Source: Paracoccaceae bacterium
GTDB taxonomy: Bacteria > Pseudomonadota > Alphaproteobacteria > Rhodobacterales > Rhodobacteraceae
DNA: 64,000 bases
Direction of reading: 5' to 3'
Assembly (NCBI GenBank): GCA_024640245.1
Contig: JAHEFH010000001.1
Location: 1-64,000, forward strand
Part shown: positions 45,466-53,105 of the stretch, piece by piece
Layout: every line of letters starts with the position of its first letter
How positions within the stretch are numbered: the stretch's first letter is position 1
Made by a program: the position numbers and the translations under genes
The notes under the pieces: generated by a model
Databases searched by the model: none
The model's input: only the letters and a program-made list of their open reading frames with translations
What the model was told of the DNA's origin: nothing

Positions 45466-45541
45466 GCCGCTGTAGCTCAGATGGTAGAGCACGTCATTCG
45501 TAATGATGGGGTCGGAGGTTCGAGTCCTCTCAGCGGCACCA
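45466..45541 (+). tRNA. tRNA-Thr (anticodon CGT)
   Basis: GCCGCTG...CAGCGGC acceptor stem, CGTCA-TTCGTAA-TGATG anticodon arm, GGTTCGAGTCC T-arm, ACCA end. Confidence 0.96.
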
Positions 45542-45787
45542 CCCAATCAACGATTTACAGTGGCCTTTCCTGCACTTGGTATATTATAGATCGTAGCTTT
45601 GCTTGTGGTCCCCTCAGAGTTTTCAAGTGAACGGTTGCGCGAGGGCCCCGGAAACTTTGTGCCTCACCCAACGCGAAGCCGGAAACGGTGAGGAAAAACC
45701 CGATTTATTCCCAATGAAACAACATTGTAACTTGACAGACCCGCATAAGCGAACGGCATGATCCGGCGAGGTCAGATGGAGGGAAGC

Positions 45788-46477
45788 ATGCAGGTCGATC
45801 TTAAGGGGCTGGCGCGGAACAATGTGCTGCGCGTTGCTATCAATACGGGCAACAGGGCCCTCGTCCAGGTGCGTGACGGCGAGCTTCTGGGTGTCAGCCC
45901 GGCGCTTGCGCGGCGCCTTTCCGAAGAGATCGGCGTCCGCCTGGAGCCAGTGGTCTACAGCGGTGCGGGTAAGGTCTTTACCGATGCGGACAAGGACGTC
46001 TGGGATGTGGCGTTCCTCGCGGTCGACGCAACACGGGCGCGGAAAGTCAGCTTCACACGACCCTACGTAACGATCGAGGCGACCTATGCGGTTCGTGTGG
46101 ATGGGCCTGTTCAGGATGTTGACGAAGCAGACCACGAAGGCGTGACGGTTCTGACCTCGACCGGTTCGGCTTATGACATGCATCTGACGGCGTCGCTACG
46201 GCACGCGCGGCTCGAACGATCCGGCATGCCGACAGAGAGCTTCGAAGAGTTCAAGGCAGGCCGCGCCGACCTTGTTGCGGGCGTTCGCGAGTCGCTCGAA
46301 CGTTTTTTCGGAGGCGATCCAGCGTTCCGCGTTCTGCCGGGCGTCCTGACCAAGGTCGAGCAGGCCATGGTCCTGCCGCAACCCGACGATCCCCGGATCA
46401 AGGTGCTCGATGCGTTTCTTGCGCGCGCTATCGAAGACGGATTCGTCGCCGCCGAGATCCGGCGTGCAAAAAGCTGA
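45788..46477 (+). CDS. Periplasmic-binding-protein-like (amino-acid SBP/HisJ-type fold) protein lacking a signal peptide
   Basis: MQVDLKGLARNNVLRVAINTGNRALVQVRDGELLGVSPALARRLSEEIGVRLEPVVYSGAG; no hydrophobic leader at any candidate start (45758, 45776, 45788). Confidence 0.8.
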   Translation: MQVDLKGLARNNVLRVAINTGNRALVQVRDGELLGVSPALARRLSEEIGVRLEPVVYSGAGKVFTDADKDVWDVAFLAVDATRARKVSFTRPYVTIEATYAVRVDGPVQDVDEADHEGVTVLTSTGSAYDMHLTASLRHARLERSGMPTESFEEFKAGRADLVAGVRESLERFFGGDPAFRVLPGVLTKVEQAMVLPQPDDPRIKVLDAFLARAIEDGFVAAEIRRAKS

Positions 46478-46495
46478 TCCTTGCAGGAGGATAAA

Positions 46496-47191
46496 ATGAA
46501 CCGACCGCTTCGCATTATAACCTCTGGCGCGCAGGCTGCCGCCATCGAGGAACTGCTGCCAAAGTATGACAGGCCGGTCGAGATCGCTTTCGGTTCGTCG
46601 CTCGGCGCAGCACACGATTCGATCCCGACACGCCTTGCCGAGGGTCAGCGGTTCGACATCTACTTCCTCGCCGAGTCGGGCCATCGTCGCTACGCTGAGG
46701 AAGGGTATCTGGATCCGTCCTTCATCCCGCTCGTCGAATCTTATATCGGCGCTGCTGTAAGGGAAGGCGAGGCCGCGCCCGATATTTCGACTGCTGACGC
46801 TCTTAGGGAAGCACTTTTGAATGCCGGATCGGTCGCCCATGCCGCGAGCGCCAGCGGTATCTATCTGTCGAGCCATGTATTCCCCGCGCTTGGCATCGCT
46901 GACCAGATGTCCTCCATCGCGAGGACGGTCTATTCCGAACGGGTAGGGCGGGTCGTCGCGCGGGGCGAGGCGGATCTCGGGTTCCAGCAAATGAGTGAAC
47001 TGCTTCCGATCCCCGGGATCACCATTGTCGGTAGGCTGCCGGAGGAATTCCGGAAGACTTTCGTCTTCGGCGCGGCCCTCGGGGCCGATGGCGGGGCACG
47101 AAGAGAGGTCGAGGCGTTTCTCGATTTCCTCCGGTCTGATGACGCGGCAGCAGCCTTTGCGGTCAGCGGACTCGAACCAATCCGGGAATGA
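46496..47191 (+). CDS. ModA-like substrate-binding-domain protein lacking a signal peptide
   Basis: LRIITSGAQAAAIEELLPKYDRPVEIAFGSSLGAAHDSIPTRLAEGQRFDIYFLAE; strong GGAGG RBS 18 bp after the upstream gene. Confidence 0.8.
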   Translation: MNRPLRIITSGAQAAAIEELLPKYDRPVEIAFGSSLGAAHDSIPTRLAEGQRFDIYFLAESGHRRYAEEGYLDPSFIPLVESYIGAAVREGEAAPDISTADALREALLNAGSVAHAASASGIYLSSHVFPALGIADQMSSIARTVYSERVGRVVARGEADLGFQQMSELLPIPGITIVGRLPEEFRKTFVFGAALGADGGARREVEAFLDFLRSDDAAAAFAVSGLEPIRE

Positions 47192-47231: not shown

Positions 47232-47756
47232 CTAACGGCGACGCTTCGAAAGTTCGCGGTATAGCGCCTCTCGCGTCACCCCCAGCGTTTGTGCAAGGTC
47301 TTGCCATTGACCCTTTGGGGGCAGCGGCTTGTGACCTGCCTGCCAGGCATCCAGTCTTTCGGCCACAGTACGCAGGGTTCGGATTTCGGCATTCAAACGT
47401 GCCGTTTGCAGCGCGTGTGCCAATCTTTCCGCCCAAGCGCTTGCCAGCCCGATGTCACTGTCGAGCCTGTCGCGAAATACAGTAACCGGGACCGAGAGCA
47501 GGCGCGAAGGTTGGGCCGCTGTACTATCGCAGTGGTAGGTCTTGGAATACGCCGAAGCCTCCGCCAATATCCGTCCTGGTCCGGCCCGAAATAGCACCAT
47601 GCGGGTGCCGGATTCCGAGTGGCGGATGAGATCGACTTGCCCATCGATTACCAGATACAATGAGCGAACCGGTTCACCGCTGTGAAACAGCGTTTCACCC
47701 TTCGCAAGCAAATTGGTTGATCCGTCGTGAAAAAGGCCGTGAAACGCAGAAGACAT
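47232..47756 (-). CDS. Crp/Fnr-family transcriptional regulator
   Basis: LLAKGETLFHSGEPVRSLYLVIDGQVDLIRHSESGTRMVLFRAGPG cNMP-binding fold; C-terminal HTH LAQTLGVTREALYRELSKR. Confidence 0.88.
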   Translation of the reverse strand: MSSAFHGLFHDGSTNLLAKGETLFHSGEPVRSLYLVIDGQVDLIRHSESGTRMVLFRAGPGRILAEASAYSKTYHCDSTAAQPSRLLSVPVTVFRDRLDSDIGLASAWAERLAHALQTARLNAEIRTLRTVAERLDAWQAGHKPLPPKGQWQDLAQTLGVTREALYRELSKRRR

Positions 47757-47768
47757 GATCTGTATCAT
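47755..47768. promoter_or_regulatory. FNR/CRP-like palindrome over the start of the Crp/Fnr gene
   Basis: ATGAT-CTGT-ATCAT perfect 14-bp palindrome (FNR-type TGAT-N4-ATCA). Confidence 0.5.
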
Positions 47769-47856
47769 ATGAGAAATTGTCGGCCAGTGCGATAAAATGT
47801 TTGGCCGTGATGCTATGAAGCGGTTGGTTGATAATGAGCAAAGGGTGATATTGGCA

Positions 47857-48468
47857 ATGTTTGACTTCGGGAACGGTTTGCGGCGCAAGGCGGCGGTCGG
47901 GATTTTTGTGATTGCGGGATTGGCCAGCGGGCAATCCGCCTTTTTTCAAGGCAGCGCATCGGCGCAGGGCATGGGTCACGGGCCCGGTGGACTGCACCTG
48001 CACGGCGGGGACGGCACAGGACACGACGAGGTGACCATGCCAGGGCTGCGGGGGCTCAATGCAACGTCCGAGGAAAGTGCTGAACTGGCTGTCATGTTCC
48101 GCAACTTCCAAACGCTTACGCGAGAGGTCTCGAACCTGCCGAACGGTATCCGCACCGTTACCCGGTCCTCTGACGAACAGGTGATGGCGACGTTGGTAAA
48201 CCATGTGGTCGGGATGATCGGTCGTGTCGAAGCAGGGGACGATCCACAGATATTCATTCAAAGCCCGACGCTGGACATCTTTTTCGCTCGCGGTGACGGG
48301 ATTGAGACCGCGATCGAAGTCACGGACGAGGGCATCGTGGTGGTCCAGACCTCGGATGACCCGGAAATTGTGACAGCATTGCAAGTCCATGCCGCCGAGG
48401 TCTCGGATATGGCGGAGCGTGGAATGCAGGCCGTCCACGAGATGATGATGAAGCGCGCCGGGAACTGA
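47857..48468 (+). CDS. Exported His/Met-rich protein of unknown function with internal duplication
   Basis: MFDFGNGLRRKAAVGIFVIAGLASGQSAFFQGSASAQ leader; HGPGGLHLHGGDGTGH segment; two related GI..V..S.D..[VI]...L..H segments. Confidence 0.75.
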   Translation: MFDFGNGLRRKAAVGIFVIAGLASGQSAFFQGSASAQGMGHGPGGLHLHGGDGTGHDEVTMPGLRGLNATSEESAELAVMFRNFQTLTREVSNLPNGIRTVTRSSDEQVMATLVNHVVGMIGRVEAGDDPQIFIQSPTLDIFFARGDGIETAIEVTDEGIVVVQTSDDPEIVTALQVHAAEVSDMAERGMQAVHEMMMKRAGN

Positions 48469-48586: not shown

Positions 48587-49276
48587 TCATATTCCCAGAA
48601 ACTTTCCGGATATTTCGGTAGACAGATCAACCGGTGCGCCGGACCAGACCGTTTTTCCCCGTTCGAGGATCGAGCAGTGATCCGCAAGGCCCAGCAGTTC
48701 CTTCAATGCCCCGTCCACGATCAGAACCGACAGGCCCTCGGATTTGAGGCGGTGCAATGTCGTCCAGATCTCGGCCCTGATTACGGGTGCCAAACCCTCT
48801 GTCGCCTCATCCAGAATTAACAGGCGGGGATTGGTCATCAGTGCCCGTCCTATGACCAGCATTTGTTGTTCCCCGCCGGACAGCGTCACTGCCGATTGCG
48901 CGGCCCGCTCTTCAAGTCGCGGAAAATAACTGTAAACGCGCGAGAGGTCCCAATGGCCCTTTCGCGCGGCAGCGGTCAGGTTTTCGGCGACCGTCAGGTT
49001 GCCAAACACGCGCCGTCCCTCAGGCACCAGACCGATACCAAGTCTCGCGATACTGTGCATCGGCATGCCTGTCAGGGATCGGCCCTCGAAATCTATGCGC
49101 CCGGCCCACCGGTCCTGCATGCCGCAAATGGCGTTGATCGTCGTGGATTTGCCCATGCCGTTGCGGCCTAGCATAGCCGTGACACGCCCTTCGCGCAGGG
49201 TCATATCGACACCGAACAAAACCTGTGAGGCGCCGTACCAGGCCTGCAGGTTTTCGATATCCAACAAGGCCGTCAT
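48587..49276 (-). CDS. livF: Branched-chain amino acid-type ABC transporter ATP-binding protein LivF
   Basis: LGRNGMGKSTTINAICGM, TLSGGEQQMLVIGRALMTNPRLLILDEATEGLAPVI. Confidence 0.92.
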   Translation of the reverse strand: MTALLDIENLQAWYGASQVLFGVDMTLREGRVTAMLGRNGMGKSTTINAICGMQDRWAGRIDFEGRSLTGMPMHSIARLGIGLVPEGRRVFGNLTVAENLTAAARKGHWDLSRVYSYFPRLEERAAQSAVTLSGGEQQMLVIGRALMTNPRLLILDEATEGLAPVIRAEIWTTLHRLKSEGLSVLIVDGALKELLGLADHCSILERGKTVWSGAPVDLSTEISGKFLGI

Positions 49277-50025
49277 GGGCTGTCACCGCCAAGATAGGCC
49301 TCGATCACGTCGGGGTTTCTGCGGACCTCGTCCACCGTTCCGGTGGTGATGATCCGGCCATAGAAAAGCACCGAAATCCGGTCCGCCAGCGTAAAAACCG
49401 CGTCCATGTCATGTTCGACCAACAGGATCGGCGTGTGCGCCTTCAATTCCGCCAACAGGGCGGTCAGCGCTTTGGAACCTTCCGCCCCCATTCCTGCCAT
49501 GGGCTCGTCCAACAGGAAAACCTTAGGGTTCAGCGCCAGGGCCATCGCAATCTCCAGATTGCGCCGCTCGCCGTGGCTCAATTTCGCTGCGGGAACTTCG
49601 GCACGCCCCGCCAGACCGACGCGGGTCAGACAGGCTCGCGCCTTTTCCACCAGATCTTGGTTTTTCAGAACGGGCTTTAAGAACCGAAAACTCATCCCCT
49701 CGCGCCCCTGAACCGCCAACATCGTGTTTTGCAGTGCGGTAAAATCCGGAACCACCGACGAAACTTGAAAGCTGCGCGCCAAACCGGCCCTCGCACGATC
49801 CACTATGTTCAGGGCGGACACCTCCTGATCGCCGATCAATATCTGTCCCGTATCCTGCCGCAAGGCACCCGATATCTGCTTGATCAAAGTAGATTTTCCG
49901 GCTCCGTTCGGGCCTATCAGCGCATGAATCTCACCCGGACGGATTGTCAGGGATACCTGATCGCACGCCACCACGGCACCGAAGCTTTTGGACAGGCCGT
50001 TGATCGTCAGAACCGGCTCAGTCAT
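49273..50025 (-). CDS. livG: Branched-chain amino acid-type ABC transporter ATP-binding protein LivG
   Basis: IGPNGAGKSTLIKQISGAL, LSHGERRNLEIAMALALNPKVFLLDEPMAGMG. Confidence 0.92.
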   Translation of the reverse strand: MTEPVLTINGLSKSFGAVVACDQVSLTIRPGEIHALIGPNGAGKSTLIKQISGALRQDTGQILIGDQEVSALNIVDRARAGLARSFQVSSVVPDFTALQNTMLAVQGREGMSFRFLKPVLKNQDLVEKARACLTRVGLAGRAEVPAAKLSHGERRNLEIAMALALNPKVFLLDEPMAGMGAEGSKALTALLAELKAHTPILLVEHDMDAVFTLADRISVLFYGRIITTGTVDEVRRNPDVIEAYLGGDSP

Positions 50026-50998
50026 GGCGGACCTCTTTGGCCAGCAAGCCGATTGCGCCGCCACGGCCAAACAAAACAACGACGATCAGGATCGCACCCA
50101 GCCAGAACTGCCAGTTTTCCGTGATCCCGCCAAGGCTCTGTTCCAGCACGATGAACAAGGCCGCACCGACCAGTGGTCCGAACAGTCGTGCGACACCGCC
50201 CAGAATGACAAAGACCATGATCTCGCCCGATGTGTGCCAACTGAGCATCGAGGGGCTGACAAACCGGTTCAAATCAACATAAAGGGCTCCCGCAACGCCG
50301 GTGATCGCCCCCGATATGATGAAGGCCGTCAGGCGGATCCTGAAGGGCGCAATGCCCACAGCCTCGACCCGTTCGGCATTCTGTTTGGTGGCTTGCAGTG
50401 CCAGACCGAAGCCCGCGTTCACCATGCGTGAGCTTCCCCAGACGACGGCCATGAGCCAGACAAAGCAGATCGCGAAGAAACTGGCGCCATTCATGGTGTT
50501 CAGGCCGGGGAATTCGCTGCGCAGATAGACGGACAGCCCGTCTTCACCGCCATAGCTGGGCCAGCTGATGGCGAAGTAATAGATCATCTGGGCGAAGGCC
50601 AGGGTGATCATGATGAAATAGACGCCGCTGGTGCGCAGAGAGAAAGCCCCAATCACTGCGGCAAACACGGCTGAAACGATCGCTGCGACCGGCCAGATTA
50701 CAAGCATCTGCGTCGTGCCGCCAATCTCGATGGGCCATGTCGCCAACGGCTCGTAGTTCAGCGCGTGGCTGGCCAGTATGCCTGCCGCATAGCCGCCAAT
50801 CCCGAAAAACGCGGCATGCCCGAAAGAGATCAACCCGCCGTAACCAAGCGCAAGGTTGAGCCCGACGCCCGCCATCGCCAATATCGTTACCTTGGTGGCC
50901 AGGGTGATGTAATACGGCTCGTCAAATATCGCGCCGGCCAGAACCACTGCCAACAGAAGGGCTACACATGCCGCGTTCAGCCAGAACTCTTTGATCAT
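50018..50998 (-). CDS. livM: Branched-chain amino acid-type ABC transporter permease LivM
   Basis: ALGYGGLISFGHAAFFGIGGYAAGIL; multi-TM. Confidence 0.92.
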   Translation of the reverse strand: MIKEFWLNAACVALLLAVVLAGAIFDEPYYITLATKVTILAMAGVGLNLALGYGGLISFGHAAFFGIGGYAAGILASHALNYEPLATWPIEIGGTTQMLVIWPVAAIVSAVFAAVIGAFSLRTSGVYFIMITLAFAQMIYYFAISWPSYGGEDGLSVYLRSEFPGLNTMNGASFFAICFVWLMAVVWGSSRMVNAGFGLALQATKQNAERVEAVGIAPFRIRLTAFIISGAITGVAGALYVDLNRFVSPSMLSWHTSGEIMVFVILGGVARLFGPLVGAALFIVLEQSLGGITENWQFWLGAILIVVVLFGRGGAIGLLAKEVRHD

Positions 50999-50999
50999 G

Positions 51000-51920
51000 T
51001 CACGCCGCCTTACCGGCCAGACCGGACGGCCGCCAGATCAAGACCACGGCCATCAGCAGGTAAATTAGCATCGACGCCAGCGCCGAACCGACCGATGTTG
51101 CCAAAGACGGCTCGAAAACAGATTTCAGGATGACGGGCAACAGGAACCGGCCCAGCGTGTCTGTAACGCCCACCAGAAGCGCGCCCAGAAATGCGCCTTT
51201 GATCGACCCGATGCCGCCTATCACCGTAACCACGAAGGCCAGTATGAGTACCGGTTCGCCCATCCCGACCTCGACCGACTGGATGGTGCCCACCATGGCC
51301 CCGGCCAGCCCTGCAAGCGCCGCTCCCAGGGCAAAGACGATGGTGTAAAGCTTCGAGATATCGACGCCCAGAGCGGCGATCATTTCGCGGTCGCTCTCAC
51401 CCGCCCTTATCCGCACGCCCAGACGGGTTTTGGCAATCAACAGGAACAGGCCTACGGCGATAAGCAAGCCGGCGGCAATAATGGCCAACCGGTATTTGGA
51501 GTAGGCAATTCCGAACGGCAGGCTCACCGTGCCGGAAAGGGCGTCCGGCACGTCGAGATAAAGCGGAAACGGCCCGAACAGCCAGCGCGTGCCCTCGGAA
51601 AACAACAAGATCAGCGCAAAGGTCGCCAGCACCTGATCCAGATGATCCCGTCGATACAATCGCCGGATCACGGTCACCTCGACCAAGGCGCCGACCATGG
51701 CCGCCGCGGCGAGACTGGCCATCAGGCCCAGCCAATAGGAACCGGTCCAACCCGCCACCGCGGCAGCCGCAAAGGCCCCGATCATATAGAGCGATCCGTG
51801 CGCCAGATTGATCAGCCCCATAACGCCGAAAACCAATGTCAGCCCTGCCGACATCAGAAACAGCATCACGCCGAATTGCAGACCGTTCAGGATCTGCTCT
51901 ATGAAAAGACTTGCGCTCAT
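51000..51920 (-). CDS. livH: Branched-chain amino acid-type ABC transporter permease LivH
   Basis: LNGLQFGVMLFLMSAGLTLVFGVMGLINLAHGSLYMIGAF; multi-TM. Confidence 0.92.
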   Translation of the reverse strand: MSASLFIEQILNGLQFGVMLFLMSAGLTLVFGVMGLINLAHGSLYMIGAFAAAAVAGWTGSYWLGLMASLAAAAMVGALVEVTVIRRLYRRDHLDQVLATFALILLFSEGTRWLFGPFPLYLDVPDALSGTVSLPFGIAYSKYRLAIIAAGLLIAVGLFLLIAKTRLGVRIRAGESDREMIAALGVDISKLYTIVFALGAALAGLAGAMVGTIQSVEVGMGEPVLILAFVVTVIGGIGSIKGAFLGALLVGVTDTLGRFLLPVILKSVFEPSLATSVGSALASMLIYLLMAVVLIWRPSGLAGKAA

Positions 51921-51968
51921 GGGGAGAAAGTAAAAGAGCGGCCCCGCGAGGGGCCGCACGGGTCCTGA

Positions 51969-53105
51969 TTACATGGAACAATCGGCAACATAGGCATCGG
52001 AGTGATCTTCGAGGGCCAGTGATACGATCTTGTTGGTCAGAACGTCGCCCTCTTTCACGACTTCACGAACGTAGATGTCCTGAATCGGATGGTGGTTCTT
52101 GGCGAAGGCAAAATCACCGCGTGTCGAAGCGAAATCGGCCGCTTCCAGCGCGGCGCGAAACGCATCCGCGTCCGATACATCCGCCTTGGCCATTGCAGAG
52201 ATCAGCAGGTTCGCCGTGTCGTAGCCCTGACTCGCGTAAAGCGAAGGTAAACGGCCGAATTCGGCCTGAAAATCTGCCACGAATTTTACGTTGGCAGCAT
52301 TGTCCAGATCCTTGGACCACTGCGAAGTGTTCTTCACGCCCAAAGCGGCGTCGCCCACGGCCTGAAGGATGCCCTGATCAAAGGAAAACGCGGGGCCGAC
52401 AACCGGGAGATCAATGCCAGCCTGCGCCCACTGCTTCATGAAGGAAATGCCCATGCCGCCCGGCAGGAAGAAGAATACGCTGTCAGCACCGGACGCACGG
52501 ATTTGCGCGATCTCGGCGGCATAGTCTGTCTGACCCAGTTTGGTATAGACCTCGCCCGCAGGTTCGCCTTTGAAAAAGCGCTTGTAACCGGTCAGCGCAT
52601 CTTTACCGGCAGGATAGTTGGGCGCCAGGATGAAAGAATTCTTAAATCCTGCACCGTTGGCATAGGCGCCCGCCGCTTCGTGCAGGTTGTCATTCTGCCA
52701 TGCCACGTTGAAGTAGTTCTTGTGACAACCCTTTCCGGCCAGCGCCGAGGGACCGGCATTGGGCGACAGATAGAACTTGCCCTGATTGACGACCGCCGGA
52801 ACGACGGCCATGGCCAGGTTGGACCAGATGATACCGGTCAGTACATCGACCTTGTCGGACTGAATCATTTTGTCGGCGATCTGTACCGCGACGTCGGGTT
52901 TTCGCTGATCGTCTTCGATCACCATTTCGATCTTGTCATTGCCCTTGATGGCCAACAGGAAACCGTCGCGCACATCAATGCCCAGACCGGACCCGCCACC
53001 CGACAATGTGGTGATCATGCCGACCTTGACAGCCTGATCCGCCGCCAGCGCCGGACCGGCGACAAGCGCCGCTGCAATGGCAATCGCCGTGAGTGATTTC
53101 AACAT
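51969..53105 (-). CDS. Branched-chain amino acid-type ABC transporter substrate-binding protein
   Basis: Signal peptide MLKSLTAIAIAAALVAGPALA; VKVGMITTLSGGGSGLGIDVRDGFLLAI. Confidence 0.9.
   Translation of the reverse strand: MLKSLTAIAIAAALVAGPALAADQAVKVGMITTLSGGGSGLGIDVRDGFLLAIKGNDKIEMVIEDDQRKPDVAVQIADKMIQSDKVDVLTGIIWSNLAMAVVPAVVNQGKFYLSPNAGPSALAGKGCHKNYFNVAWQNDNLHEAAGAYANGAGFKNSFILAPNYPAGKDALTGYKRFFKGEPAGEVYTKLGQTDYAAEIAQIRASGADSVFFFLPGGMGISFMKQWAQAGIDLPVVGPAFSFDQGILQAVGDAALGVKNTSQWSKDLDNAANVKFVADFQAEFGRLPSLYASQGYDTANLLISAMAKADVSDADAFRAALEAADFASTRGDFAFAKNHHPIQDIYVREVVKEGDVLTNKIVSLALEDHSDAYVADCSM

Follow-up and report, generated by a model that had tools for sequence, protein, structure and literature searches.

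Two adjacent genes in the genome of a Paracoccaceae bacterium encode proteins that carry the fold of periplasmic substrate-binding proteins and no signal for export, and solid evidence from gene context points to an unrecognised, probably enzymatic family whose fold and role both have precedents. We consider it an even call that the two proteins, here termed A and B, are cytoplasmic enzymes built on the binding-protein fold, with unsaturated tricarboxylates as likely substrates. Their link to a tricarboxylate pathway is well supported, as judged from the genes that accompany their homologues, while catalysis by A and B, their substrates, the roles of individual residues, and their joint action are what we infer from these comparisons. 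A narrower version, in which A would stand for an undescribed family of SBP_bac_3-fold cytoplasmic enzymes for tricarboxylate catabolism and B for a protein of aconitate-isomerase type re-targeted by a single loss of its signal peptide, both in one pathway, is put forward tentatively and with less than even confidence.

Such proteins are named transporter substrate-binding proteins in databases (e.g., WP_240094210 and WP_129063514), and if they are cytoplasmic enzymes, many such transport annotations would be wrong. It would further follow that a tricarboxylate route in Rhodobacterales has an unassigned step, and that the exported and non-exported branches of one family trace, as a natural series, how a binding protein becomes an enzyme.

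Two co-directional genes beside a tRNA gene

The window analysed here, i.e., the whole stretch of 64,000 nucleotides at the start of contig JAHEFH010000001.1 (assembly GCA_024640245.1), contains gene A at 45788..46477 on the plus strand (ATG at 45788, TGA at 46475-46477), encoding a leaderless SBP_bac_3-fold protein of 229 amino acids, and gene B at 46496..47191, also on the plus strand (ATG at 46496, stop ending at 47191), encoding a leaderless SBP_bac_11 (ModA-like) protein of 231 amino acids. The genes lie head to tail in a common reading frame with 18 bases between them, and both have good ribosome-binding sites on the plus strand, namely a Shine-Dalgarno-like GGAGGG at 45778..45783 for A and a Shine-Dalgarno GGAGG at 46486..46490 for B. 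A consensus scan found no promoter directly upstream of A, the consensus being uninformative for this clade. An assembly chimera was considered, and there was no sign of one: G+C content is even over the junction (~0.61-0.63), and the spacing of A and B is operon-like.

Just 5' of A is a tRNA-Thr (CGT) gene (45466..45541, plus strand; ARAGORN), itself downstream of a class II ribonucleotide reductase gene. The downstream flank of this tRNA gene differs in content among the congeners examined, none of which has A or B there, so that the two genes occupy a likely insertion site; the variable flank suggests that A and B are an acquired pair.

The initial annotation saw no transporter beside the two genes, and the surroundings agree. 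Within the window, no ABC permease or ATPase gene adjoins A or B, and the closest ABC genes, on the minus strand at 48587-53105, lie beyond a Crp-like gene and another open reading frame and form a set of the branched-chain-amino-acid type with its own Peripla_BP_6 binding protein. Likewise, neither a membrane-protein gene nor a pathway gene is found next to A or B in the window, and the cluster query proteins other than A, serving as a control, had no match in these 64 kb. The Crp-like regulator gene occupies 47232-47888, on the strand opposite to an open reading frame of 223 amino acids (47797-48468, plus strand) that has no Pfam match and overlaps the start of the Crp-like gene.

Absence of an export signal in A, B, and their close relatives

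Leaders were sought by means of in-frame stops plus hydropathy, which revealed neither a signal peptide nor a lipobox on A or B. For A, an in-frame stop at 45746..45748 (plus strand, read from the upstream translation) closes the frame and excludes an N-terminal leader; the only in-frame starts upstream are 45758 and 45776, and the longest extension that they allow, MIRRGQMEGS, is ten residues long and polar. For B, the limit is set by A itself: because the two genes share a frame, the stop of A, seven codons before the ATG of B, leaves room for at most five extra residues (LQEDK). The earlier statement that no plausible start yields a hydrophobic leader is thus borne out for both proteins, and no upstream start supplying a signal peptide was found for either.

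Close relatives are alike in this respect. A hydrophobic N-terminus is missing from all 23 of the 23 A proteins at at least 47% identity and from all eight of the eight B proteins at at least 49% identity, the window's own proteins being included in both counts. B relatives further off bear clear leaders. On the tree, the B proteins without a leader fall into a single clade (support 100/97) nested among leader-bearing rows, some of which are encoded beside TcuC and LysR genes, a pattern that we read as one loss of export. Leaders are also present in the wider family of A, where a minority of the distant proteins carry them. A second B-like group, in Burkholderiales (G751:C1:29728-30411 and similar), consists of short open frames of about 240 amino acids in which the match begins only at about residue 15, so further leaderless branches may exist.

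Family and database names would make A and B ordinary binding proteins of ABC transport, with a signal peptide that was missed or a transporter encoded elsewhere, and we regard this as very improbable. There is no upstream frame to hold a leader, whole clades are leaderless, and a search for consistent ABC permease or ATPase neighbours of A and B homologues found none across the loci surveyed.

Fold assignment and active-site comparison

Profile searches confirmed the initial reading of two co-directional neighbours from two binding-protein families, at the exact coordinates given above. A matches PF00497 SBP_bac_3 (E 4.5e-9, 36.6 bits vs a Pfam cut-off of 26.4) and B matches PF13531 SBP_bac_11 (E 2.9e-28, 99.6 bits vs a cut-off of 25), scores that speak against a chance assignment. 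AlphaFold2 gave confident models of both, with a mean pLDDT of 96.1 (A) and 94.3 (B); the best fold matches of the A model are an arginine-binding protein and cyclohexadienyl dehydratase, and those of the B model are ModA and related proteins, at TM about 0.8. No regulatory domain is fused to A or B.

Membership of A in SBP_bac_3 held, while the earlier label "HisJ-like" proved loose, since the group nearest to A, in sequence as in fold, is that of the arginine-binding proteins and ancestral cyclohexadienyl dehydratase. Among proteins of known structure, the sequence of A is best matched by cyclohexadienyl dehydratases, both ancestral and extant (AncCDT and PaCDT), in which the SBP_bac_3 fold has become an enzyme. 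The active site of PaCDT comprises nine residues, including the general acid Glu173 (PMC10520331). In a profile alignment read by eye, A keeps none of the nine: Tyr22, Trp60, Lys100, Asn128, and Thr132 of the dehydratase correspond to Asn22, Gly59, Ala98, Ser124, and Ala128 in A, Asn133, Asn152, and Thr169 to Tyr129, Pro148, and Gly165, and Glu173 to Ser169 or, by gap placement, Arg167. A cytoplasmic cyclohexadienyl (prephenate/arogenate) dehydratase is what the best structural relatives of A would suggest, and it is extremely improbable, because the active site with its Glu173 is gone and the context of A is one of tricarboxylate catabolism. The dehydratase precedent cited in the initial annotation therefore fails as an activity for A, which also differs from PaCDT and AncCDT in being leaderless.

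The aspartate by which amino-acid binding proteins hold the amino group of their ligand aligns with Val166 of A, and the carboxylate-binding arginine position of those proteins is kept as the invariant Arg83, a combination that fits a carboxylic acid that has no amino group.

For B, the best matches among solved structures are those of ModA, and molybdate binding was considered and rejected. B scores below the curated model (TIGR01256, 26.4 bits vs a cut-off of 62.5), and the context is also against it; unlike ModA, B is leaderless, has no accompanying modBC genes, and carries a conserved Arg46 and Glu168.

Orthologues of gene A in tricarboxylate catabolic islands

Of 395 genomes in the order, 15 (its own included) encode an orthologue of A with an identity of at least 53%. 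The context survey covered about 16 kb around each of 21 orthologue loci, with genes called on composition first and on conservation afterwards. Of the 21 loci, 15 contain one or more of PrpF, TctAB, and TcuA (L061, L062, L065, L066, L120-L129, and L131); the three marker genes were absent from the other six, one of which has GalB- and RraA-like genes. The island around A is made up of a tripartite tricarboxylate transporter, TcuA/TcuB, a PrpF-family tautomerase, a 2-hydroxyacid dehydrogenase, and an AbrB-type membrane protein, with a frequent gene order of TctE-TctD, TctC-TctAB-PrpF-2-hydroxyacid dehydrogenase, A-AbrB-GntR, and TcuA. Curated models identify the PrpF homologue as a 4-oxalomesaconate tautomerase; they also bear out the assignment of TcuA and TcuB. 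In two loci PIG-L (GalB-like) and RraA-like genes are paired with A. Among distant homologues of A, one in Pantoea adjoins acnA (aconitase AcnA), another, in Comamonas, is one gene away from acnA, and a third, in Paracoccus, overlaps an isocitrate-type dehydrogenase gene; others have no such neighbours.

At three loci (L124, L127, and L129), A overlaps the co-directional gene for the AbrB-type (AbrB-duplication-type) membrane protein by 4 bases, an arrangement from which we read that the two are sometimes translationally coupled; at L061, an isocitrate/isopropylmalate-type dehydrogenase gene overlaps A likewise. The overlap or near contact of A and AbrB-type genes on the same strand at several loci, and the MFS genes that precede A homologues in Pantoea, Phytobacter, and Methylobacterium, could mean that A serves the AbrB-type membrane protein (or B a secondary transporter) as a soluble partner, e.g., as a cytoplasmic trapping or gating subunit. 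We think this improbable, given that the partner transporters differ from locus to locus, that close A orthologues at L126 and L128 have no adjoining AbrB gene, and that no membrane protein is encoded next to A or B in the window.

In the tree, the window's A groups with the island-associated orthologues, with inner forks that are weakly supported. Its genome (G000) holds island partner genes on two other contigs. One of these, C170 (L169, G000:C170:1-17260), carries PrpF (63%), TctAB (65%), TctC (70%), and a GntR gene, and the other, C84 (L170, G000:C84:1-8193), has TcuB (66%), a partial TcuA-like gene, a 2-hydroxyacid dehydrogenase (70%), PIG-L (78%), RraA (75%), and a second PrpF (46%). A is thus detached from, yet not without, its usual company. 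The genome as a whole has a catabolic set of the tricarballylate / 4-oxalomesaconate type, which also includes a VOC protein and is split over C84 and C170.

Such detachment, together with a variable tRNA-Thr flank that lacks A and B in congeners, might be expected of recently acquired or decaying genes without a role in their host. We find this improbable, as both frames are intact behind good ribosome-binding sites, the window's A is 60-69% identical to the island-associated orthologues and keeps the invariant residues of the family, and the partner genes are in the genome.

Context of the B family and its association with A

Close orthologues of B occur in Silicimonas, Tropicimonas, genome G474, and Polynucleobacter or other Burkholderiaceae, and in Polynucleobacter/Burkholderiaceae they lie between TctC-type binding-protein genes. 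At 35-41% identity, B relatives in four genomes adjoin genes for LysR and for TcuC, a tricarballylate/proton symporter (740-770 bits vs a cut-off of 445), and galB and ligK are found in the vicinity of a relative in Neorhizobium. Over 29 B-family proteins, Ser10, Ser35, Pro44, Arg46, Ser118, Gly121, Tyr123, Gln164, Gln165, and Glu168 are invariant. The leaderless B proteins are set apart from the TcuC-associated type by 21 fixed differences, so their substrate may differ from that of the latter.

The lack of leaders and the pathway context would fit equally well if A and B were non-catalytic, intracellular ligand-binding proteins, i.e., tricarboxylate sensors or buffers that inform regulators or modulate the pathway. 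This is unlikely in our judgement, though a serious contender: A often adjoins GntR and TctDE regulators and the AbrB-type membrane protein, and relatives of B adjoin LysR; on the other side, neither protein is fused to a regulatory domain, every locus is already provided with regulators of its own, and there are precedents for enzymes among the SBP-fold proteins of catabolic loci (PMC10520331).

The pairing of A with B was not found to be conserved in the relatives searched. A conserved A-B pair was rejected, there being no B match above 36% in 148 relatives; among the B loci from the GTDB scan, none has A within 8 kb, and in G474, where both are present, they lie 677 kb apart. One distant Burkholderiales genus (G875 and G1097) has a tandem in the reverse order, B-A, and in G875 its B bears a lipoprotein-type leader and its A none. 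This tandem is suggestive of a joint role of A and B, and is not proof of one; with about 30 B loci inspected, one chance adjacency is not very unlikely.

A proposed role on the binding-protein fold

Enzymes on the binding-protein fold also include aconitate isomerase, MqnA, and 4,5-dihydroxyphthalate decarboxylase. The suggestion in the initial annotation that A and B are cytoplasmic enzymes of a small pathway holds in part: it gains from the island around A and from the TcuC and LysR neighbours of the B family, and it loses both the conserved pair and the dehydratase precedent.

Under the enzymatic reading that we prefer, A and B would be soluble, cytoplasmic proteins of the type-II periplasmic-binding-protein fold that have departed from transport, acting on aconitate or on the C7 acid 4-oxalomesaconate and relatives. 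The tricarboxylate would close the two-lobed cleft, its carboxylates being held in A by Arg83 and in B by Arg46 and conserved serines. A cleft residue of B, probably within the invariant Gln164-Gln165-x-x-Glu168 motif, would move a proton, as would perhaps Tyr129 in A, with the invariant Asn19, Asn22, and Gln192, and this transfer would shift or isomerise the double bond of the tricarboxylate. B would then be of the aconitate-isomerase type, and A would catalyse an accompanying step, as an isomerase, a tautomerase, or a (de)hydratase. Import of the acid would fall to the tripartite tricarboxylate transporter, and its processing to TcuAB, the PrpF-type tautomerase, and GalB-like and RraA-like enzymes, all encoded elsewhere in the same genome.

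A candidate model for B is the ModA-like aconitate isomerase of Pseudomonas sp. WU-0701, with which B would share the SBP_bac_11 / ModA-like fold. B differs in being leaderless, whereas relatives of this kind are exported, and the links to TcuC, TctC, and galB/ligK seen among B relatives do not extend to the window locus. The WU-0701 enzyme is described as highly active (Yuhara et al. 2015, as cited in PMC11495376 and PMC13188880).

The chemistry proposed here is of the kind carried out by PrpF, TarA, and 4-oxalomesaconate tautomerase, and TarA, which is of PrpF type, isomerises trans-aconitate (PMC11495376). Genes of this type adjoin orthologues of A; they encode a protein family other than that of A or B, and are pathway partners and no homologues. 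Our literature search found no report that connects 4-oxalomesaconate or tricarballylate with binding proteins lacking a leader. Isolates of Pantoea agglomerans and Serratia use trans-aconitate without a PrpF-type isomerase (PMC11495376), and the A- and B-type homologues present in Pantoea may bear on this PrpF-independent use.
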